Positions 48,735 to 61,218 of a stretch of DNA of 64,000 nucleotides are shown here, piece after piece; position 1 is the stretch's first letter; every line of letters starts with the position of its first letter. Made by a program: the position numbers and the translations under genes. Source of the DNA: Holdemania sp. Marseille-P2844. Lineage in GTDB: Bacteria > Bacillota_I > Bacilli_A > Erysipelotrichales > Erysipelotrichaceae. The notes under the pieces were generated by a model. The model had not been told where the DNA came from and searched no databases. It saw only the letters and a list, made by a program, of their open reading frames with translations. The stretch spans positions 186,001 to 250,000 of the forward strand of contig NZ_LT635448.1 of NCBI RefSeq assembly GCF_900120005.1, in the 5' to 3' direction.

Positions 48735-50132
48735 TTAATCTGAATTTGCGGCCGCTTCATTTACATCAGCCAGCGTCGATAATGGAAATTGCAGAATTAC
48801 CTGAGCGCCGCTGCCATCCGGAACGTTGCCGGGAATCATGCGGCCACCTTCAATCTGCATTGCCTGCGAAACGGTATATAAGCCCAGACCCGCATGGCCA
48901 TGACTGCTGCGGGCTGATTCATAACGGTAGAATGGCTCGCCGATATGATTCAGGCTTTCCGCGTGAAAACCGGGACCTTCGTCGCTGACTTTCAGGATCC
49001 AGCAGGTTTCCGTAATCTGGCCCATCAGCTGAACCGTCTTGCCTGAGGGGCAGTAGCGGATTGCGTTATCAAGCAGATTGATCAGCGCCCGGCGCAGCGT
49101 TTCCGCATGGATTCGGGCCTGGAAAGGCGGACAGAATACCGTCAATGTGATCGCTTTATTGCGGCACAATCCGGATACTTCCTTCATGCAGCGCCGGACC
49201 AGCGCGTCGATAGCGGTGACGCGGGGCTGTTCCGCCTGATTCTGGCTGCACGCTGCCTGCTGCAGCTGAAATACAACCTGACGAAGCTGACCGACATGGC
49301 GATTGATGGCTTCCAGACGATGCCTTGCTGACCGGGCTTCCTTTTGCAAAAGTTCGGCGTCGGTTTGGATTTTAGCCAGCGGCGTCTTTAAATCGTGCGC
49401 CAGCACGGTGATCTGGATCTCCCGCTGATTTTGCATATCCCATTGCTGGATCTGGGAATCCTTCAGTGCGGAGCGCATCGTATCAACGGAATTCAACGCC
49501 TGATTGAACTCGGTGAACGCGGTATCCTGAATTTCAAAATCAAGATTGCCGGAAGCGATCTGCGTTGCGGATTCTTCCAACGTGTTCAAAGCCTGTACAA
49601 GTTTCCGCCCGTAGTGATTGGCCGTCGTCAACAGGTACAGAAAGAGCGACAAGCCGAGTGCGCCGATCAACGGCCCCTGCAAGTTGGGGATCAGCGCGGC
49701 GAGTGCCGGGAGGGCGGGGCGGATTTCATAGCGGAATAAGAGGATGACGACTTCCGCCCGCAGGTCGGTGCGGAACCAGGTTTGCGTGCCGATCTTGCCG
49801 GTGTAGCTGCCGGTATAGAGAGAAAAATCAGTCAGCGCGCTGTCCGGGGACAACGAAGTATCTGCCAGCTGTTCATGACTGAACAGCACATAATCAAGAC
49901 CATCGCCAACCTCAGCCGGATCAAAGAAATCCTGCCGCTGAATTTTACCGATCAGTTCCTGGGCCTGTTTCTCATTGTGATTGAGCCGCGTGTACCATCC
50001 AGCCTGAAGTCCCAGCAGAAACAGGAGCACAGCACTCCCCAAAAGCGCGAGTACACCCAAAGCGGTCGTCAGAAAATAGCGCCGTAAAAATTGCGCCAGA
50101 GTGTGAGTTTTTCGGTGTCTGCGTTTATCCAT
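48735..50132 (-). CDS. Sensor histidine kinase, orphan
   Basis: This 465-residue membrane kinase has a first helix at about 20-45, an extracytoplasmic region, a second helix at about 155-170, a HAMP-like linker (A-S-G-N-L-D-F-E), and the HisKA box V-L-A-H-D-L-K-T-P with the phosphoacceptor His near residue 245. The ATPase domain follows, with N box L-L-D-N-A-I-R, G1 D-E-G-P-G-F and G2 H-A-G-L-G-L-Y. No response regulator gene is adjacent on either side (the flanks are an intergenic region and convergent yitT), so its partner must be elsewhere. The input is unknown. Confidence 0.92.
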   Translation of the reverse strand: MDKRRHRKTHTLAQFLRRYFLTTALGVLALLGSAVLLFLLGLQAGWYTRLNHNEKQAQELIGKIQRQDFFDPAEVGDGLDYVLFSHEQLADTSLSPDSALTDFSLYTGSYTGKIGTQTWFRTDLRAEVVILLFRYEIRPALPALAALIPNLQGPLIGALGLSLFLYLLTTANHYGRKLVQALNTLEESATQIASGNLDFEIQDTAFTEFNQALNSVDTMRSALKDSQIQQWDMQNQREIQITVLAHDLKTPLAKIQTDAELLQKEARSARHRLEAINRHVGQLRQVVFQLQQAACSQNQAEQPRVTAIDALVRRCMKEVSGLCRNKAITLTVFCPPFQARIHAETLRRALINLLDNAIRYCPSGKTVQLMGQITETCWILKVSDEGPGFHAESLNHIGEPFYRYESARSSHGHAGLGLYTVSQAMQIEGGRMIPGNVPDGSGAQVILQFPLSTLADVNEAAANSD

Positions 50133-50962: not shown

Positions 50963-51047
50963 GGTTTCCGCGTTCATTGAATCAGGGAACAATCACGTTT
51001 TCAGCCAAACTTAATAGTATGATAGTGCAATGAAAGGAGCCCAACCG

Positions 51048-52310
51048 ATGGAAGAAGTATTTAAGATTGAAGGCGGTCATCAGCTGAACGGAGAGGTCAG
51101 AATCAGCGGGGCGAAGAACGCGACGGTGGCTTTAATCCCGGCCTCCATTCTGGCTAACGGCCCGGTGACGATCTGCGGCGTTCCGGATATCGCGGACGTG
51201 GAGTCGTTATCGACCTTGTTAGAGGAATTGAACGTCGCGGTGGTGCATAAGGATCGGGGGCATCTGATCATCGATCCGACGGAGATGATCAACTGCCCGC
51301 TGGAACATCCGGCGGTTACGAAGCTGCGGGCTTCCTATTATTTCATGGGAGCCTTGTTAGGCAAATACAAGCATGTGAAAATTAAAATGTCGGGCGGCTG
51401 TTATCTGGGGCCGCGGCCGATTGATCTGCATCTCAAGGGCTTTGAAGCGCTGGGGGCGAAGGTCGACTATCAGAAAGGGTGTTACACGATCGAAGCGGAA
51501 GAATTGATCGGAACAAAGATCTTCCTGGATATTTCTTCGGTCGGCGCGACGATCAACATCATGATGGCGGCGGTGTACGCAAAGGGCCGCACGACGATTG
51601 AAAACGCGGCGAAGGAGCCGGAAATCATTGACGTTGCGACGCTTTTAAACAAGATGGGCGCGCATATCCGCGGCGCGGGGACGAATGTGATCACGATTGA
51701 CGGCGTAGATTATTTATCCGGCTGCTTCCATGAGATTATCCCGGACCGGATTGAAGCGGGTACGTTTATTATCATGGCGGCCGCGGCGGCCAAGGAAATG
51801 AAGATTACCAACATTATTCCGCAGCATCTGGAATCGTTGTTGTCAAAGCTGCAGGAAATGGGCGTGGATATGGAAGTCGATGTCGACAGCGTGACGATCC
51901 GCGGCGGTGGGAAGCTGCAGGGCGTGGATATCAAGACGCTGCCGTATCCCGGCTTTGCGACGGATTTGCAGCAGCCGTTATCGGCGTTGCTGACGCAGGC
52001 GGAAGGCAAGTCGACGATCAAGGAAACGATATATCCGGAACGGTTTAAACATTGTATCGAACTGCAGCGGATGGGCGCGGATATCAGCGTCGGTCAGGGC
52101 AGCTGTACGATCGAAGGAATCACGCCGCTCTATGGCGATCGGGTTACTGCAACGGATCTGCGCTGCGGCGCCAGTCTGGTAGTGGCGGGCTTGCTAGCGG
52201 AAGGCGTGACGGAGATTCATGAAATTTATCACATCGAACGAGGCTACGATGATCTGGATGGCAAGCTGCGGGCCTTGGGCGCAAACATCTGGCGGGAAAC
52301 GATCGAATAG
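51048..52310 (+). CDS. murA: UDP-N-acetylglucosamine 1-carboxyvinyltransferase
   Basis: This 420-residue enzyme does the first committed step of peptidoglycan synthesis, adding enolpyruvate to UDP-GlcNAc. Conserved active-site positions are K23-N24 in G-A-K-N, R94 region, and Cys118 in [11 protein letters not shown] (the fosfomycin-reactive Cys). The C-terminal [13 protein letters not shown] near residue 370 is also typical. ATG 51048 follows AAAGGAGCCC; an in-frame ATG at 51030 lies upstream of that site. It is monocistronic. Confidence 0.97.
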
Positions 52311-52328
52311 CGCCATTATGAAATCAGA

Positions 52329-52367
52329 AGATCTGAGCGGACAGCGTGTCTGCGCAGGTCTTTTTTA
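52329..52367 (+). terminator. Terminator of murA
   Basis: AGATCTGAGCGGACA pairs with TGTCTGCGCAGGTCT (two wobble pairs, one mismatch), followed by TTTTTT. Confidence 0.75.
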
Positions 52368-52488
52368 TTTTAGGCCGCAAGTTTGGAGGCTTGAAAAACT
52401 GTCATTGAATTAAATTGATAATCCTTGTTTCCGATTGTTTGAAATTTGGAGTATGATTGAGATAGAAATGGATAAGGAGGGATCGGAA

Positions 52489-53703
52489 ATGAAGAAAGTT
52501 TTGATCATGGGTCTGTTATTGATAGTGTGTTTGAGCGGCTGTTTTAGCGAAGGTCGTCTGAAACCGGGAATTCATGGGACCTCAGCGGGAAAGGAAATGG
52601 AAAAATTTCTGGAATCCAGGCCGGATAAGAACCTGTCAAACCCAAGTCTATCCGATTATCAGATTAAGACATCCCAAAATTTTTATTTTTATAATTTTAC
52701 AGCGAAAGATCTTTCAAAGCTGGATTTATCTTCGCTGACGTTATCCGAGCTTGCGAATGAAACGATGTTTACCGCAAGTACAAAATGGCCGGATACGTTG
52801 ACGAACCTGGACATTGAGCAATTTTGGAAACAAGCCTGGGGCAAACCGTTAGGCGCAGCGCTTTTCCATGAAAATGGAATCACTGGAAAAGGCGTGGGAA
52901 TCGCGATCATCGGACCACAGCTTTACGTTGATCATCCTGAATACAAAGATAATTTGAAACTCTTTTATGGGAACGAAGATCCCTTATCTCAAAATTTGAT
53001 CAGTACGCTTGGAAGCGGCGCAATGTTGTCCAATCTGGCGGGAAAGTCGCTGGGGTATGCCCCGGAGGCTTCAATCGCTTATATCGTCAATTCAGGATAT
53101 GATGAAAAGGGGAAGCAAGACCTTTCCTCCATCCTTGAAAATCTGGATTCCTTGTTGGAATATAACAAAACCCTGAAAAAAGATCCGATCCGGATGATTC
53201 TTATTTTCTCGGATATGAACAATCAGGACAGCGCTTATGATGCATATCAGACGAAAGTCGAGGAATTGAAACAAGCGGGGATCGAAGTGTTTACCAGAAT
53301 GCCCTACTTTAATGGTCATTACTTCACCACGCTGGCTAAAATTCCGTATGCCCCGCTGGATGATGTGAATTCCTACTATTTCGATAAGGCCGGGGAAACT
53401 CCAGATCATGTGTTGTATCTTCCTTATGCCAACCGGGTCCTGGCTTTTCCGGGAGAAGAAAACTATGTTTACTATCCGAGCCGTTTGGATGTAAACTATG
53501 GTACGATATCCACCCTGGCTGGTTTTTACGCGCTGGCCCTGCAGATGGATCCGAGCTTAACGCTGGATGAATTTGTCGAAATTGTCGCCGATTCGACGAT
53601 CACATTAAGACCCGATAAGGAATACCGGGTGACAGGATTGGAAAATGTGATTTATCCGTCACGCCTTTACGATCATTTGACGGCAAGAATGAAAGAAAAT
53701 TAG
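52489..53703 (+). CDS. Subtilase-like lipoprotein lacking the catalytic triad
   Basis: This 404-residue exported lipoprotein starts at ATG 52489 (AAGGAGGGATCGG before it) and has the lipobox L-S-G-C (Cys18). From about residue 130 the sequence follows the S8 subtilisin fold: G-K-G-V-G-I-A-I-I-G, then D-H-P-E-Y, L-G-Y-A-P-E-A-S-I, and a late Y-G-T-I-S-T-L-A-G-F-Y-A-L. Each catalytic position is lost: Asp is G142, His is L174, and Ser of G-T-S is I340. The rest of the core is kept, so it is probably a non-peptidase that uses the fold for binding. It is flanked by murA and the AraC regulator without operon linkage. Function unknown. Confidence 0.75.
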   Translation: MKKVLIMGLLLIVCLSGCFSEGRLKPGIHGTSAGKEMEKFLESRPDKNLSNPSLSDYQIKTSQNFYFYNFTAKDLSKLDLSSLTLSELANETMFTASTKWPDTLTNLDIEQFWKQAWGKPLGAALFHENGITGKGVGIAIIGPQLYVDHPEYKDNLKLFYGNEDPLSQNLISTLGSGAMLSNLAGKSLGYAPEASIAYIVNSGYDEKGKQDLSSILENLDSLLEYNKTLKKDPIRMILIFSDMNNQDSAYDAYQTKVEELKQAGIEVFTRMPYFNGHYFTTLAKIPYAPLDDVNSYYFDKAGETPDHVLYLPYANRVLAFPGEENYVYYPSRLDVNYGTISTLAGFYALALQMDPSLTLDEFVEIVADSTITLRPDKEYRVTGLENVIYPSRLYDHLTARMKEN

Positions 53704-53767
53704 ATAGATAAAATGGCTTCAGCATACTTGTTATGGAATAAAAATGCAAATACCCCTTTCAATGATC

Positions 53768-53797
53768 AGATCTGGAAAATATCCAGATCTTTTTTAT
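53768..53797. terminator. Bidirectional terminator
   Basis: AGATCTGGA-AAATA-TCCAGATCT is a perfect 9-bp stem followed by TTTTTT. The stop codon of the AraC-type gene lies in the T run. Confidence 0.88.
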
Positions 53798-55302
53798 TTG
53801 TCTGTTCGATTCTGTTTCCGGTACTGAATTGGCGAAAGTCCGGTTGCTTGATGAAAAATCCGGCTGAAATATAAGCTATCTGTATAGCCGCACTGAACGG
53901 CGATTGTTTTTATTTTTTCCTGTGTGTTTTCCAATAGATAAACGGCATGTTCCAAACGAATTTTTCTTAGCATGGCCATAACAGATATCCCGACTTCTTT
54001 TTGAAAGGTTCGGGCTAAATGAGCTTCGCTTACACTTTGAAAGTCCGCCAGCTGGGTCAAGGTCAGAGACTGCGTATAATGAGTTTGCAGAAAAATTAAA
54101 GTTTCTCTTACAATTTTTGAGTATTGATAATTTCCATTTTCCTGAATCCATCGGAAAATTGTACGTACAGCTTCATCTAAAATGACCTTCAGATCTTCAA
54201 GATATTCGCAAAACTGGATCGTCAGGATTAACTGTGAGAAATCACGGAAATCACGAAATCCTCTCTGCAAGCCTAGATAACGAATCTTGGTAAATAAAGT
54301 AATAAAAAATTCCTGAATATCATGTGGATAAATATGATGCTTTATAAAATAGCGGATCGCTGATTCTTTGACATCTGTAAGATTTTCCAATGTTATTTCC
54401 TGAATTTGCTGGAAACGTTCCTTCTGATAGACAGGATTGAATTGCTGGAGCGACCGAAAAGCAATAATTTCAGAAGGCTTCAAAAAGATTCCGGGCTGCT
54501 TAAAAAAACATGTTTCATGATTGTCGATGAGTTGAATCATCTTCTGAGCGAAGCCATTTAAGCTGGTGCAGACTTCAGACATAGTGAAAGAAAGCGTCAG
54601 GGACGTTGTTTCTGCAAGTTTTTTCTGCAAAGCTGTCAGTTGTTCGGGCAGCCCGTCTATATCCTGATCAGAAACCAGGAAAAGGCCGGAGTGATTCTTA
54701 ATAAATAAAAGCTGATGTTTCATCGTAAGCGTCTGCGCAATTAGATTTTGCAAAGAATTGCGGAATTGCCGTCGGTTTTTGATGATTTTGGCATAGGCTT
54801 GATGAATGTTGTCAATTCGGAAATAAATCATGTGATAGGCAGCGGGATAACTGGCAAGAGCGGCTGAAATTTGTGCGTCAGCGGCCGCAGAAGGCCGTAG
54901 CTGCCCATCTTTGATCAAACCCAATAACTGCTGCAAACCTAAACGCGGATCGGATTCCCGGCCAATCATGGGAATCGCGGGCAGATTCAAAAGAGCAGGA
55001 TCCCAATCCGGCAGGTAATCCCACACCCCGCTGCGGAAAGCCCGACGAACAGTGGGATAGGTTAAATCATTATGAATCAGAACAAAACGTGTCGGCAACG
55101 ATTGCTTTTGAATCAGATATAACAAATCCCAGGCAGTGCCGTTGACCAGATCCAGTTCCGCGATTAAATAATCCGGAATGTATTCCTGAACCTTTTCTTT
55201 TGCGTCGATGAAATTTGATACCCTTGCGATGATATTAAACGAGCCTGCCGGCAATGCCGGAGAATCAATCGCAAACTTACCGGCTAATATAACGTTAATC
55301 AT
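53794..55302 (-). CDS. AraC-family regulator with a degenerate receiver domain
   Basis: This 502-residue regulator has an N-terminal receiver-like domain, a long middle region of about 270 residues, and a C-terminal AraC double HTH from about residue 400 (L-T-L-T-Q-L-A-D-F, S-E-A-H-L-A-R-T-F, I-A-V-Q-C-G-Y-T-D-S-L-Y-F-S-R). In the receiver the metal-binding pair is missing and the phosphoacceptor aligned in D-Y-L-I-A-E-L is Glu49, not Asp, so it probably works without phosphorylation. The YesN-like layout is otherwise complete. It is divergent from the PTS/sulfatase operon, with promoter elements and a cre-like site between, and is its probable activator. Confidence 0.85.
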   Translation of the reverse strand: MINVILAGKFAIDSPALPAGSFNIIARVSNFIDAKEKVQEYIPDYLIAELDLVNGTAWDLLYLIQKQSLPTRFVLIHNDLTYPTVRRAFRSGVWDYLPDWDPALLNLPAIPMIGRESDPRLGLQQLLGLIKDGQLRPSAAADAQISAALASYPAAYHMIYFRIDNIHQAYAKIIKNRRQFRNSLQNLIAQTLTMKHQLLFIKNHSGLFLVSDQDIDGLPEQLTALQKKLAETTSLTLSFTMSEVCTSLNGFAQKMIQLIDNHETCFFKQPGIFLKPSEIIAFRSLQQFNPVYQKERFQQIQEITLENLTDVKESAIRYFIKHHIYPHDIQEFFITLFTKIRYLGLQRGFRDFRDFSQLILTIQFCEYLEDLKVILDEAVRTIFRWIQENGNYQYSKIVRETLIFLQTHYTQSLTLTQLADFQSVSEAHLARTFQKEVGISVMAMLRKIRLEHAVYLLENTQEKIKTIAVQCGYTDSLYFSRIFHQATGLSPIQYRKQNRTDK

Positions 55303-55423
55303 AGCTATTCTTCCTTCAGATGATAAAATATGGATAATTTTGATTTTGAATGCACGATTATATTAGAAGTATAAATTAAATTGATAAATATTACAATTTA
55401 AAAAATCCCTTTCCGGAATGATC

Positions 55424-55451
55424 TTGACGGTGGTCCTGATTGAAATATAAA
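55424..55451 (+). promoter_or_regulatory. Promoter of the PTS/sulfatase operon
   Basis: TTGACG (55424-55429), 16 nt, TATAAA (55446-55451), 61 nt before the start codon. Confidence 0.6.
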
Positions 55452-55465
55452 CTGGAATTAAGCAA

Positions 55466-55479
55466 AGCGAGCGCTTACA
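55466..55479 (+). promoter_or_regulatory. cre-like catabolite-repression site
   Basis: AGCGAGCGCTTACA; its reverse complement TGTAAGCGCTCGCT matches 12 of 14 positions of the CcpA consensus TGWAARCGYTWNCA. It sits just downstream of the -10, a position where CcpA blocks transcription. Confidence 0.6.
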
Positions 55480-55511
55480 AAATTTGCTGAAAACAAACAG
55501 GAGGACTCTCT

Positions 55512-56024
55512 ATGATTCAACTCATTCGCAGCGATGAACGGCTGATCCACGGACAATGTATGACTCAAATCGTCAAGACCTACGATATACAGGAGATTAT
55601 CGTTATCGACGATGCCACTGCCGAAAATGCACTGTTAAAAAGAATTTTTACGATGGCTGTCCCGAAAACCATGAAGGCCGCGGTCTATACTTTAAACGAA
55701 GGCGTCGATAAAGTAAAAGAAGCGCTGAACAATGCCGTGAAGACATTAATTTTAATGAAGACTCCGGTACCCATGGTCGAATTAATTCAAAGAATTCCTG
55801 AATTGAATAAAGATTTAAATATTGCATCTTTATCCCAACGGAAAAATGCGGGAGTTTGCGTAGAGATCGTACCGGCAACTTATTTCACGAGGGATGAATT
55901 CACAGCTGTCGAACAACTGACAGAAGCGGGTGTCCGGATATGGCTGCAGATGATTCCCAATTCGGCGCGGACTGAATGGTCTGAAATCCGTGAACGAATC
56001 CAACAAAAATTTAACAAACTATAA
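55512..56024 (+). CDS. PTS mannose/sorbose-class EIIB component
   Basis: This 170-residue cytoplasmic EIIB of the mannose-fructose-sorbose class has the active-site His in R-S-D-E-R-L-I-H-G-Q (the common motif is R-x-D-D-R-L-I-H-G-Q), followed by I-V-I-D-D-A-T-A. It takes phosphate from an EIIA-Man protein and gives it to the sugar. CAGGAGGACTC precedes ATG 55512. It is the first gene of the five-gene operon; the EIIC and EIID subunits follow. No EIIA gene is in the operon, so another locus must supply it. Confidence 0.92.
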   Translation: MIQLIRSDERLIHGQCMTQIVKTYDIQEIIVIDDATAENALLKRIFTMAVPKTMKAAVYTLNEGVDKVKEALNNAVKTLILMKTPVPMVELIQRIPELNKDLNIASLSQRKNAGVCVEIVPATYFTRDEFTAVEQLTEAGVRIWLQMIPNSARTEWSEIRERIQQKFNKL

Positions 56025-56039
56025 GAGGAGGAGAACTTA

Positions 56040-56798
56040 ATGAGTATCTTTCAAGCCTTGCTGCTCGGCTTCTTTGGGTGGCTTATGAATTCTCATGCTT
56101 TGCTTGGACATTGGGGCTTCCAGATTTTCCGCCGACCATTGATCGCGGGAATGATCTGCGGTCTTGTAATGGGGGATGTAACCAAAGGAATTATGGTGGG
56201 AGCGGTATTGCAGGCGATGTATATTGGGACGATGAATGTCGGCGGGATCGCATCCATGCCGCCGATTGACATCAGTCAATGGTTTGCGATTCCTCTGGCG
56301 CTGCTTCAGGGCGGCGATGCGGAAGTGGCGATTGCCTTAGCGGTTCCATTCAGCTTTCTGGCTCAGATGCTCCAGGTCTTATTAATGAATGTGAATCAAA
56401 TTATACTGCACAAAGCAGATGATCTGATTGCCAAAGGAAAATTGAAACAGGCTTACTGGACACATTTTGCAGTGCCTACCGCGCTGAATTTGGTGATCAA
56501 CATGTCAATCATTACGATCTTGTGTTTGATTGGTTCAGCGGCGATTGACGTCATCGTATCCGCAGTTCCCGCCAGTATCATGGGAATTCTGGGGGTTTTT
56601 ACTAAAATCATCCCGTTACTGGGTTTTGCGATCTTATTAAATAGTCTGTTGAAGAATAACAGTCAGCTGATCTTCTTCGTATTGGGTTTCGCTTTACTTA
56701 AAGTTGTCGGGCTTAACGTCATTACGATTACGATTATTGGCGGCGCGATCGCTTATGTGATTTTTATGATTCAGGGAAAGGCGGGAGAAAACGCATGA
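56040..56798 (+). CDS. PTS mannose/sorbose-class EIIC membrane component
   Basis: This 252-residue membrane protein has about seven helices and the EII-Sor features R-P-L-I-A-G-M-I-C-G-L-V-M-G-D and I-G-T-M-N-V-G-G. It forms the sugar channel together with EIID, with which it overlaps by 4 nt. AGAGGAGGAGAAC precedes ATG 56040. The mannose-class permease in this context most likely carries an amino sugar or hexose from a glycan. Confidence 0.9.
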   Translation: MSIFQALLLGFFGWLMNSHALLGHWGFQIFRRPLIAGMICGLVMGDVTKGIMVGAVLQAMYIGTMNVGGIASMPPIDISQWFAIPLALLQGGDAEVAIALAVPFSFLAQMLQVLLMNVNQIILHKADDLIAKGKLKQAYWTHFAVPTALNLVINMSIITILCLIGSAAIDVIVSAVPASIMGILGVFTKIIPLLGFAILLNSLLKNNSQLIFFVLGFALLKVVGLNVITITIIGGAIAYVIFMIQGKAGENA

Positions 56799-57622
56799 CT
56801 CAGTTGCAGAATTTAAGTAAGGATAAACACTTTTTACGGAAGACGATGTGGAGTTTCCTGTTCGGTTCCGGCGTTTGCTTTACCATGGAAAGAATGATGG
56901 GCCCGGGCATGGTCAACATGATGATCGCCTCGGCCAAAGAACTGTATCCGGATGATCCTGAAAAACAAATCGAGTTATGTCAGAATCATTGTGTATTCTT
57001 CAATACACAGCCGACAGTCGGAATTATTGTGCCGGGGATTGTGCTGGGATTGGAAATGGAAAGAGCGAAAACGGATGAGATTCCCAATGAACTTATCCAA
57101 AGCGTGAAAACCGCACTGGCCGGGCCCTTTGCAGGGATCGGCGATTCCCTGATTCAGGGGTTATTGATCCCCATCCTGCTTTCTATCGCCATCAGTCTCA
57201 GTGATGGTGGATCGGTCATTGGCGTTCTTTTCCTGATCGGCGCGTATTTCCTGATTTGTTATCCTCTGACCTGGTCGCTTTTCAAAACTGGCGTTCAAAT
57301 GGGAATCAACGGTGCGGAACAAATTATTTCATCCGGAATTAAAGATCGTTTTATCTCGGCGGTTGAAATCCTAGGGATCTTGGTCGTCGGTGCGGTAACG
57401 GCCAGTACGGCCAACGTTACTACGGGCTTATCTTTCACTTTCGGAGAATTGGAGATTAACGTTCAAGCGCTTTTCGATAAAGTCTATCCTGGTTTGCTGA
57501 CGATGGCGGCTTTAGGCGGAACTCTTTGGCTGATTCGTAAGAAAAAGGTAACACCGTTAAAGATTATGGGTTTGTTTCTAATTCTTTCTACGATCGGATA
57601 TTTTACAGGGATCTTAGCGTGA
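56795..57622 (+). CDS. PTS mannose/sorbose-class EIID membrane component
   Basis: This 275-residue subunit of the EII-Man transmembrane complex starts with the family pattern L-R-K-T-M-W-S-F-L-F-G-S-G-V-C-F-T-M-E-R-M and has N-T-Q-P-T-V-G-I-I-V-P-G, A-L-A-G-P-F-A-G-I-G-D-S, and a C-terminal membrane helix. EIID is present only in this PTS class. The start overlaps EIIC by 4 nt. The esterase gene follows after 16 nt. Confidence 0.92.
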   Translation: MTQLQNLSKDKHFLRKTMWSFLFGSGVCFTMERMMGPGMVNMMIASAKELYPDDPEKQIELCQNHCVFFNTQPTVGIIVPGIVLGLEMERAKTDEIPNELIQSVKTALAGPFAGIGDSLIQGLLIPILLSIAISLSDGGSVIGVLFLIGAYFLICYPLTWSLFKTGVQMGINGAEQIISSGIKDRFISAVEILGILVVGAVTASTANVTTGLSFTFGELEINVQALFDKVYPGLLTMAALGGTLWLIRKKKVTPLKIMGLFLILSTIGYFTGILA

Positions 57623-57638
57623 GTAAGGAGCGATAAAT

Positions 57639-58538
57639 ATGCCAGTCATTAAGGAAAACGTCTATTCAGATGTAATGATGGAAACTCTCTGTTATCAAAA
57701 AACACCGCAAAAGGATTTGATGATGTCCATCTTTAAACCAGAAAGCTGGGCTGCGGGAGATTGCCGTCCAGCCGTCCTGTTCTACTTTGGCGGGGGATTC
57801 TATAAAGGAAATCCCAGTCATTTTCGGATGCAGGCGGAATACTTCGCTCATTTAGGCATGGTAACGTTAACGCCGGATTACCGGTTGACGACGCTGCCGG
57901 GAATTACAGTAAAAGACTGTCTGCTTGACGGTAAATCAGCGCTCCGCTATGTGATCGCTCATGCGGAAGAATTGGGAATTGACCGGAAACGGATTGTGGT
58001 AGCGGGTGGTTCTGCGGGCGGAGCGATGGCCAGTGTGGCAGCTATGGTCAATTCGTTAGATGAAAGTGATGAATCCTCCGTTCCCTGCGCAATGATTTTA
58101 TATAATCCGGGAATTCAGTTTTCATCCCTGGGTTCATCCTTTGACGGATTGTCGGAGGATGATACAATCAATATTAACGGCAAACAGGAGAAGATTAAGG
58201 ACTTGAAAAAGAAAATGCCAAAATTTGATGATCCGGAATTAGAGACGTTATCTCCAATGGAATATATTCGCCCAGGTCTGCCTGTGACGCTGCTGATACA
58301 AGGGGAAGCGGATCGCGCGGTATCTGTGGAGAGTATTAAGGAATTTCATAAAAGAATGCGTGCTGTCGGCAATGACTGCGAATTAGTCGTCTATCCCGAT
58401 CGCGATCATGGATTCTTTAATTGGAATTCCAGCGAGGAACACATCTGTTATTATGACACGCTGAATCTGGTTGAAGATTTTCTGCGGCGGAAACAAATTT
58501 TAAACCCAGGTTTAAGAAAGAAGCTGTTGTGGGAGTAA
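57639..58538 (+). CDS. Alpha/beta-hydrolase esterase
   Basis: This 299-residue cytoplasmic hydrolase of the hormone-sensitive-lipase-like group has the oxyanion-hole Gly run F-Y-F-G-G-G-F-Y-K-G near residue 46, the nucleophile elbow V-A-G-G-S-A-G-G near 125, an Asp in G-E-A-D-R-A and the His in P-D-R-D-H-G-F-F near 255. It probably removes an ester (often acetyl) from the imported saccharide. TAAGGAGCG precedes ATG 57639 and the sulfatase gene follows after 3 nt. It has no signal peptide, so it acts after import. Confidence 0.85.
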   Translation: MPVIKENVYSDVMMETLCYQKTPQKDLMMSIFKPESWAAGDCRPAVLFYFGGGFYKGNPSHFRMQAEYFAHLGMVTLTPDYRLTTLPGITVKDCLLDGKSALRYVIAHAEELGIDRKRIVVAGGSAGGAMASVAAMVNSLDESDESSVPCAMILYNPGIQFSSLGSSFDGLSEDDTININGKQEKIKDLKKKMPKFDDPELETLSPMEYIRPGLPVTLLIQGEADRAVSVESIKEFHKRMRAVGNDCELVVYPDRDHGFFNWNSSEEHICYYDTLNLVEDFLRRKQILNPGLRKKLLWE

Positions 58539-58541
58539 ATT

Positions 58542-60020
58542 ATGCGGGCAATCATGATCATGTTTGACACGCTGACACGCAGTTACCTGCCGAACTATGG
58601 CAATGACTGGGTGATCGCGCCGAATTTTCAGCGGTTGGAAGAACACTGCGTCACTTTCGATCATTTTTATGGAGGAAGCATGCCGTGTATGCCGGCCCGG
58701 CGCGAGCTGCATACCGGAAAGCTGAACTTTCTTCACCGCAGCTGGGGACCGCTGGAACCCTTTGATATTTCTGTTGTGGATCAATTAAAGAATCATGGAA
58801 TCTATACCCATCTGATCACGGATCATTCGCATTATTTTGAAGACGGCGGAGCCACATATCATAACCGGTATAACAGCTGGGAAGGCTTCCGCGGTCAGGA
58901 AGGGGATCGCTGGCAGCCGCGGGATATCGACCTGAAGCTGCCGCGCCAACATCCGTTAACGAAACCCGGCATTTCTTTTGTTCAGCATTACGCGAATCGA
59001 CAAAAACAGCGTCGGGAAGAGGATTATTCTTCAATAAAGACGATAAATGCGGGGTTGGAATTTCTCCAGTCGCATGGAAACCGGGAAAACTGGTTCGTTC
59101 AGGTGGAATGCTTTGATCCGCATGAGCCGTTTGTGGTTCCGCAGCGGTATCGTGATTTATATGGTTTGACGCAGCCGCCGCGGCTGAACTGGCCGGTCTA
59201 TGGCCCGCTTACAGGTAAGCTGAGTCTGGATGAACTGGAGGATCTGCGCAAGGAATATGCCGCGCTGATCAGTATGTGCGACGCCTATCTTGGCAAAATT
59301 CTGGATTTTATGGATGACCATGAGATGTGGAAGGATACGTTGCTGATCGTGAATACCGATCATGGTTTCTTATTGGGCGAGCATGACTGGCTGGGGAAGA
59401 ACAAACCTCCGCTGTATAATGAGATCGTGCATATGCCTTGCTTCATCCATGTGCCGGGGCAGCCTGAAAACCAGCGCCGGTCGGCCTTGGCGCAGACGGT
59501 GGATATTCCTGCGACGTTGCTGGATTATTTCGCGGTTCCGCCAATCGCCGGCATGGCGGGATGTTCCCTGCTTCCTGTGGTGAGTCAGGATCGGGAAATT
59601 CATGACGCGGTTTTGTTTGGAATCTTCGGCGGTCATGTGAATGTTACGGATGGCGAATGGCTTTATATGCGCGCCAATCGAACGCCGGATAACCAGCCGC
59701 TGGCGGAATATACCCTGATGCCGACGCACATGCGGGAATTCTTCTCTCGGGAGGAATTAAACGGCGCGGAGCTTGTGCGGCTGAATCAATTTTCCCATCA
59801 AATGCCGGTGTTGCGGATTCCCTGTCATACTGATCAGAATTCCGCGCTGGATGGCGACTTCCTGTTTCATCTGACCGAGGATCCCGAACAGAAACAGAAT
59901 TTAATAGATGACAGGCCGCAGGAAAGGGCGAGGATGATCCGATTATTGAAAGAAAAAATGATCGAATCTGAAGCACCGAGGGAGCAATGGATTCGAATGG
60001 GGCTGTCACAAACGGAATGA
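58542..60020 (+). CDS. Sulfatase, Cys-type
   Basis: This 492-residue sulfatase of the alkaline-phosphatase superfamily has the formylglycine site as S-M-P-C49-M-P-A-R, i.e. C-x-P-x-R, which needs oxidation by an anaerobic sulfatase-maturating enzyme or FGE. Metal-binding D9 lies in M-F-D-T, and N-T-D-H-G-F-L-L-G-E-H-D with G-K follows. There is no signal peptide, so desulfation is likely to happen inside the cell after PTS uptake. No maturase gene is in the window. It ends the operon before a terminator. Confidence 0.9.
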   Translation: MRAIMIMFDTLTRSYLPNYGNDWVIAPNFQRLEEHCVTFDHFYGGSMPCMPARRELHTGKLNFLHRSWGPLEPFDISVVDQLKNHGIYTHLITDHSHYFEDGGATYHNRYNSWEGFRGQEGDRWQPRDIDLKLPRQHPLTKPGISFVQHYANRQKQRREEDYSSIKTINAGLEFLQSHGNRENWFVQVECFDPHEPFVVPQRYRDLYGLTQPPRLNWPVYGPLTGKLSLDELEDLRKEYAALISMCDAYLGKILDFMDDHEMWKDTLLIVNTDHGFLLGEHDWLGKNKPPLYNEIVHMPCFIHVPGQPENQRRSALAQTVDIPATLLDYFAVPPIAGMAGCSLLPVVSQDREIHDAVLFGIFGGHVNVTDGEWLYMRANRTPDNQPLAEYTLMPTHMREFFSREELNGAELVRLNQFSHQMPVLRIPCHTDQNSALDGDFLFHLTEDPEQKQNLIDDRPQERARMIRLLKEKMIESEAPREQWIRMGLSQTE

Positions 60021-60023
60021 AAT

Positions 60024-60055
60024 AAAAAATCTGGACTTTGCTCCAGATTTTAATT
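60024..60055 (+). terminator. Terminator of the PTS/sulfatase operon
   Basis: AAAATCTGGA-CTTTGC-TCCAGATTTT is a perfect 10-bp stem followed by TAATTTT. Confidence 0.85.
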
Positions 60056-60276
60056 TTATCAGGTGAATAAGTTGATTTTCTCCCTGAATATTGGGCTTAT
60101 CCAATTTGCGGAGCCGATTGTCTGTATGTCAGCTTGATTGACCATTTGTGTTTAAATCTGATTTGATTCCTTGTTCCACTCATTCAACTGGGATTTCCGA
60201 ATGTCTTATGTTTCTAACGATATAGTCCATAATTAGTTCTCCAGCTTCTAATTTATCTATTTTTGAAACTGGATTT

Positions 60277-60801
60277 TTACAATTTAAACTTATTGCAGCA
60301 AAAACGTAGATACTCTTTCACTGATATTTCCTGGCGATGTAAAATTCCAAGAATAACAAATAGAATTTCTGCTATCGTAATATAACAGTCTTTCAAATCA
60401 AAAATAAAGAAGTTGGGAATTTGTAGAAAATCTAAGCTTCCGCCCCAAAACAGCTTATCAATCAGACTGCACAAGCATCCAGCTAAGCCGAAAATCAGTA
60501 TCATTTTTACTGGGAAACTAGTATTTTCTATTTTTCTCTTATACAATAAATAGCCCGATATCAAGATCCCTAAAGCAAAAACATTTAGAAGAATCGTTAC
60601 GAAGGAGTCTGATAATAGTTCAATAAAATTTCCAAAATAAGATAAACGTGTATTTAATACAGGATTAAACCTGAGGATTCCAGAAAGGATATCGAATTCA
60701 TACTGCATGAATCCTCTTGATATCCTTATTTTTACAGTTTGATCTATCAGAATGAAAAATAATATGGGAATGATAAAAAGCTTAAACTTTTTAACAAACA
60801 T
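60277..60801 (-). CDS. LspA-like integral membrane protein (signal peptidase II family)
   Basis: This 174-residue protein has four membrane helices and resembles lipoprotein signal peptidase: L-I-D-Q near residue 18, then S-L-I-D115-K-L-F-W-G-G-S-L-D124-F-L near 112-126 and F-D-L-K-D138-C near 134-139. The last two blocks resemble the LspA regions that carry the catalytic Asp pair (often D-F and N-L-A-D). The N-x-G motif in the second block is changed to N-T-R. It is A/T-rich compared with its neighbours and is not next to the usual lspA partner rluD. It could be a divergent paralogue. The start at 60799-60801 has AAGGGAGG, but only 2 nt before the ATG. Confidence 0.6.
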   Translation of the reverse strand: MFVKKFKLFIIPILFFILIDQTVKIRISRGFMQYEFDILSGILRFNPVLNTRLSYFGNFIELLSDSFVTILLNVFALGILISGYLLYKRKIENTSFPVKMILIFGLAGCLCSLIDKLFWGGSLDFLQIPNFFIFDLKDCYITIAEILFVILGILHRQEISVKEYLRFCCNKFKL

Positions 60802-60844
60802 GACCTCCCTTCAAATTCATATTTTTCTATCGGACAAGCCCAAT

Positions 60845-61126
60845 TTATCGTTTTACAACTACTGTGATAAGGCTTACAGCTTCATCGTACGGATTAAGGA
60901 TGCCAGGCTCAGAACCTTTTTTACAAATAGGACAAGTTCCTTTTCTTAAACCAGCTTCTTTTCCATCGCAAATGGCTTTTCCATGTCTTGATAATATGAA
61001 GTTTATATTCTTGCTTGTTTCACGCTGATTCTGGTCAATAGAATCGCCGATATGAATAACACAGGAAATGTTCCCTTGTTCATCCCTATCCATTTTTGCG
61101 GTCATCATCCCTGTTTCGTTATTCAT
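60845..61126 (-). CDS. Unknown small protein with a CxxC motif
   Basis: This 93-residue product starts at ATG 61124-61126; the ribosome binding site is poor. It has a C-P-I-C pair about 30 residues before the end and one further Cys near the middle, with no signal peptide or helix that I can see. It is followed on the same strand by the LspA-like gene (44-nt gap) and preceded by the AEC transporter, whose stop lies just upstream. The frame continues upstream to 61225 without an ATG. I do not recognise it; a truncated gene is possible. Confidence 0.4.
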   Translation of the reverse strand: MNNETGMMTAKMDRDEQGNISCVIHIGDSIDQNQRETSKNINFILSRHGKAICDGKEAGLRKGTCPICKKGSEPGILNPYDEAVSLITVVVKR

Positions 61127-61218
61127 GCCCTGACGGGTAATGTCTTTCCTCGCATTAAAATTCCTCTCTCCGGATTTCAATTTATTTCCAGAATCCAGCT
61201 TAGCGAAAACAGCGGCGT

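Follow-up and report, generated by a model that had tools for sequence, protein, structure and literature searches.

A Holdemania lipoprotein with a predicted subtilisin fold and without the S8 catalytic triad

Few bacterial S8 (subtilase) pseudoproteases have been described so far. In C. difficile, two of them, CspC and CspA, take part in germinant signal transduction (PMC6636752, PMC12880746). The catalytic-site residues of CspC are G485/T170/D105, Csp proteins carry a jelly-roll insertion of ~130 amino acids in the subtilase domain, and within the Csp family the pseudoprotease state of CspA and CspC is held to be special to Peptostreptococcaceae (PMC6636752). PCSK9, another S8-fold protein, is reported to act on its receptor independently of catalytic activity (PMC13276728). 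Here we describe a gene from Holdemania sp. Marseille-P2844, located at 52489..53703 (+) of a 64,000-nucleotide stretch of contig NZ_LT635448.1 (positions 186,001 to 250,000) that we refer to as the window. Its open reading frame of 404 codons is assigned to an S8-like lipoprotein pseudoprotease on the basis of homology, a structural model, fold searching and the ratio of nonsynonymous to synonymous substitution rates (Ka/Ks). We lean towards regarding the product as a membrane-tethered pseudoprotease that is kept under selection for binding or sensing on its own.

By analogy, the nearest functional precedent for this protein is provided by CspC and CspA. Both sides of the comparison combine a bacterial S8 fold with the lack of a full triad, and the model of the window protein matches the CspC-CspA heterodimer with a Z score of 19.3. 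The Csp proteins, however, have a prodomain and the jelly-roll insertion and act inside spores together with CspB, whereas the window protein is a shorter, predicted lipoprotein whose model has no insertion of jelly-roll size; CspC and CspA have lost two triad residues and the window protein all three. Identity with CspC or CspA is ruled out by the lipoprotein nature of the window protein, the missing insertion and the lack of a CspB-like partner in view. PCSK9 shares the S8 fold (Z ~19 to the window model) but is a vertebrate, multidomain protein. The uncharacterised proteins of Dielma fastidiosa (L007), Eisenbergiella tayi (L011) and Oscillibacter (L012) resemble the window protein in full-length homology, lipoprotein signal, the motif F-x-x-x-T-x-W-P and predicted fold; these keep Asp, His and Ser, in contrast to the Holdemania protein. 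The mycosins of type VII secretion systems (TIGR03921) were also considered, as relatives in the family give weak NCBIfam matches, mostly to the N-terminal half of that model. This assignment was rejected, with no match for the window protein and 19-41 bits for its relatives against a curated cut-off of 278.75. Literature searches on Holdemania and subtilases, and on pseudopeptidases of this S8 lipoprotein family, returned nothing on the window protein.

Predicted fold and catalytic positions

Single-sequence scans of the window protein against Pfam (including PF00082) and NCBIfam gave no S8 match, so ordinary annotation would overlook it, and in a phmmer search of the PDB subtilisin was matched no better than marginally (E 0.01). 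Relatives were decisive: a profile made from 35 triad-bearing members with the Holdemania sequences left out matches residues 1-402 with an E value of 1e-59 and 198 bits. The best of 1000 shuffled copies of the window protein reached 5.7 bits against the same profile, and the S8 kinship is thus not due to chance. Five relatives (L003, L006, L007, L035 and L080) pass the cut-off of PF00082 (Peptidase_S8) themselves. An AlphaFold2 model of the window protein has a predicted template modelling score (pTM) of 0.84, and in a fold search it retrieved many subtilases at Z 19-21, with root-mean-square deviations mostly of 3.2-4.0 over about 240-264 residues. As a yardstick, a model of the same type for a triad-bearing relative has a pTM of 0.90 and matches subtilases at Z 23-25. 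The window protein is accordingly modelled with the subtilisin alpha/beta (S8) fold. Alignments, the structural model and comparison within the family thus bear out the S8 fold that a preliminary description had recognised from the letters alone.

Profile alignment with solved subtilisins identifies the Asp, His and Ser columns of the family as the S8 triad positions. There the window protein carries G142, G175 and Y337, the last being N336 under another gap placement. Positions in the model were judged by secondary-structure landmarks. G142 (codon 52912..52914, +) closes strand 137-142 in place of the catalytic Asp, G175 (53011..53013, +) replaces the catalytic His inside predicted helix 170-184, and N336-Y337 (53494..53499, +) replace the catalytic Ser at the start of helix 335-353. 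The triad residues D149, H179 and S361 of the Dielma protein lie at the corresponding secondary-structure elements. S341, four residues after Y337, stands where the family has an invariant Pro, and the conserved Gly and Pro around the Ser column are likewise altered. The preliminary description had placed the loss at G142, L174 and I340; loss of all three residues and the position G142 stand, but the His column is one residue away at G175 and the Ser column is Y337 or N336, with I340 three residues distant. Judged by the alignment, the window protein does not possess the Asp/His/Ser set of an active S8 peptidase, and since all three are replaced, S8 catalysis should be impossible for its subtilisin-fold domain.

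Triad loss in the family and constraint on the gene

The S8 lipoprotein family is small and patchily distributed, and the triad is intact in 35 of its 40 full-length members. All three residues are missing from the window protein, its homologue in H. filiformis DSM 12042, L003 (another genus of the same taxonomic family) and L078 (genome G1115, from a search in the phylum to which an Oscillibacter genome belongs), and His and Ser are missing from L080 (G1322), which was found by the same search as L078. Triad loss is thus shared beyond Holdemania, with the columns reading G/T/D in L003, G/E/G in L078 and G/G/Y in Holdemania. The three members outside Holdemania with such losses keep most other conserved positions; of 40 that are conserved among triad-bearing members, 33 are retained in L003 and 31 in L078. 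The chance that the changed positions include the whole triad is 0.0035 for L003, 0.0085 for L078 and 0.037 for the window protein, values that assume exchangeable columns, with a reference set that was itself defined by the triad, and that serve as a guide only. The best family tree requires a minimum of two changes of triad state; a single origin is not rejected by the approximately unbiased (AU) test (p 0.116).

The H. filiformis homologue is 91% identical to the window protein and has the same dead site. Between the two, Ka is 0.044 and Ks 0.298, giving a Ka/Ks of 0.147, which indicates that the dead protein is under purifying selection and speaks against a decaying gene. The ratio lies at 0.11-0.18 in each segment with measurable Ks, with no relaxed domain, and the reading frame is undisrupted in both copies. 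Elsewhere in the family, the gene copies L036/L040 (G191) and L079 (G1145) are broken into two frames with their triad motifs still legible; some family copies thus appear to decay while the Holdemania copy stays intact.

These data bear on the possibility that the gene is a relict, its activity lost by drift and the gene slowly disappearing with no present function. Such an account would fit the split copies just described, the patchy distribution (10 of 272 genomes of the taxonomic family carry the gene, and it is missing from two genomes placed in the same genus) and the location of the gene, which lies on a variable island flanked by murA and a conserved transporter. It is at odds with the low Ka/Ks and unbroken frames of both Holdemania species, with the intact expression signals and with the concentration of losses in L003 and L078 on catalytic positions, and we consider it unlikely.

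Family members also occur in metagenome-assembled genomes of Planctomycetota, Armatimonadota and rumen Pseudomonadota (L010, L016, L017, L018, L021-L023), a patchy spread that suggests horizontal transfer; a search of viral contigs found no relatives. Three members (L067:205-2625, -; L037:846-3224, +; L038:862-3240, +) extend past the S8-like part by an extra C-terminal domain of ~400 residues, whose conserved NxHGQ and Trp/Cys motifs recall caspase-like or C25 peptidases. This domain gave no Pfam match (L067, L037) and no PDB sequence match (L067).

Gene layout and genomic neighbourhood

The gene is preceded by a Shine-Dalgarno region (AAGGAGG) and spacer 5' of the ATG (52470..52488, +) and followed by a terminator-like hairpin and T run (53768..53790, +), and from the sequence it appears to be monocistronic. 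Candidate sites in a promoter scan of the gene were no commoner than in shuffled sequence. The N-terminus of the protein, MKKVLIMGLLLIVCLSGC, is a predicted signal peptide with the lipobox LSGC at residues 15-18 and a predicted lipidated Cys18 (52489..52542, +), features by which the protein would be classed as a bacterial lipoprotein; an N-terminal signal ending in Cys is also present in most family members. The preliminary description of an intact gene with good signals agrees with the frame, the AAGGAGG, the LSGC and the terminator. Next comes an N-terminal linker (52543..52833, +) with the family motif F-x-x-x-T-x-W-P at residues 94-101, for which a Pfam search of the N-terminal region found no known propeptide or repeat domain. 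The predicted subtilisin-fold domain occupies residues ~116-404 (52834..53700, +).

Upstream of the gene lies murA (51030-52310) and on the other side an oppositely oriented AraC-type regulator (53794-55302), part of a downstream block of AraC, phosphotransferase system (PTS), esterase and sulfatase genes. In H. filiformis the upstream side of the gene holds a phosphonate-type ATP-binding cassette (ABC) transporter as well as a tyrosine phosphatase, and the downstream side a sulfatase. The flanking murA and sulfatase genes are near-identical between the two, and a further genome of the genus (G002) has the murA flank and lacks the lipoprotein gene. The interval from murA to an auxin-efflux-type transporter (52310-61200) differs between the genomes compared, holding the PTS, AraC and esterase genes in the window, whereas H. 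filiformis has the ABC transporter and the phosphatase there and G002 matches neither block; it looks like an accessory island.

An all-against-all comparison of the neighbours at 40 loci found no conserved partner gene. Neighbours that recur between distant genomes belong to common families only (histidine kinases, ABC transporters), and others recur only between near relatives. The 3.68-Mb genome encodes no further S8 protein that passes the Pfam cut-off, which leaves an active CspB-like S8 partner in the same cell unsupported. Of the roles of receptor, inhibitor or scaffold that had been suggested at the outset, that of inhibiting a paralogous S8 protease within the cell, or of serving it as an allosteric partner, is therefore disfavoured.

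Candidate functions

The dead fold might instead serve as a decoy, binding inhibitors of the serpin, Kazal or eglin type from the host or neighbouring bacteria, or competing at the cell surface for the substrates of proteases from other bacteria. The predicted surface anchoring would suit this role, many inhibitors are directed at subtilisin folds, and in the gut relative Oscillibacter a serpin gene directly adjoins the triad-bearing S8 lipoprotein gene (L012:4445-5692, -), a possible protease-inhibitor pair. Inhibitor binding usually requires an intact active-site groove, however, and in the window protein the Gly and Pro near the Ser are also changed; no serpin or inhibitor gene adjoins the window gene, and we regard a decoy as quite unlikely.

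The CspC/CspA precedent speaks for a role like that of CspC beside CspB, or of a sensor lipoprotein, in which the protein would be the non-catalytic partner of an active protease or a histidine kinase of its own cell. Histidine kinase genes sit immediately upstream of the S8 lipoprotein gene in two genomes from the Eisenbergiella family search (L070:2837-4081, -; L071:2732-4129, -), with ~14 bp between the two genes in L071, and another (48735-50132) lies ~2.4 kb upstream of the lipoprotein gene in the window. The neighbourhood nevertheless varies between loci, kinases are common genes and no S8 paralogue in the genome passes the Pfam cut-off, all of which makes such a partnership improbable. 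Still less probable is an enzyme with other chemistry, for example through the conserved H127 and H149 or through S341 and N336 near the old Ser: although H127 and H149 are retained, they are equally conserved in triad-bearing members, where neither is the catalytic His, and so look structural, no new Asp/His/Ser set stands at the triad columns, and the replacement residues of L003 and L078 share no chemistry with those of Holdemania.

A stand-alone binding or sensing protein, tethered to the membrane, would be the most economical reading of these data. After export, the lipoprotein would be anchored to the membrane on its outer face, and selection would preserve the fold for what it still binds, most likely a small ligand or peptide lodged in the former substrate groove or else a protein contacting its surface; the window protein thus probably binds something instead of cutting. 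It would descend from a catalytically active S8 lipoprotein of a type still found in Dielma, Eisenbergiella, Oscillibacter and others. Several points weigh against this proposal. Purifying selection was measured on one species pair, and absence of the gene from the two other genomes of the genus implies that it is dispensable. At 2.2 changes per site the branch to Holdemania is long, and 14 of the 40 conserved positions are altered, such that the surface of the fold may have changed too. The slight chance of a different chemistry also counts here.

A broader proposal, that the protein belongs to an undescribed class of gut-bacterial surface S8 pseudoproteases with repeated independent loss of the triad, acting as a ligand receptor much like CspC, is one that we hold only tentatively. 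Within an S8 lipoprotein family that is otherwise uncharacterised, the window protein represents a dead branch. A second dead-site S8 lineage of this sort, found in a gut commensal and open to comparison with triad-bearing relatives, would offer a natural system for studying a protease fold after catalysis has been lost.
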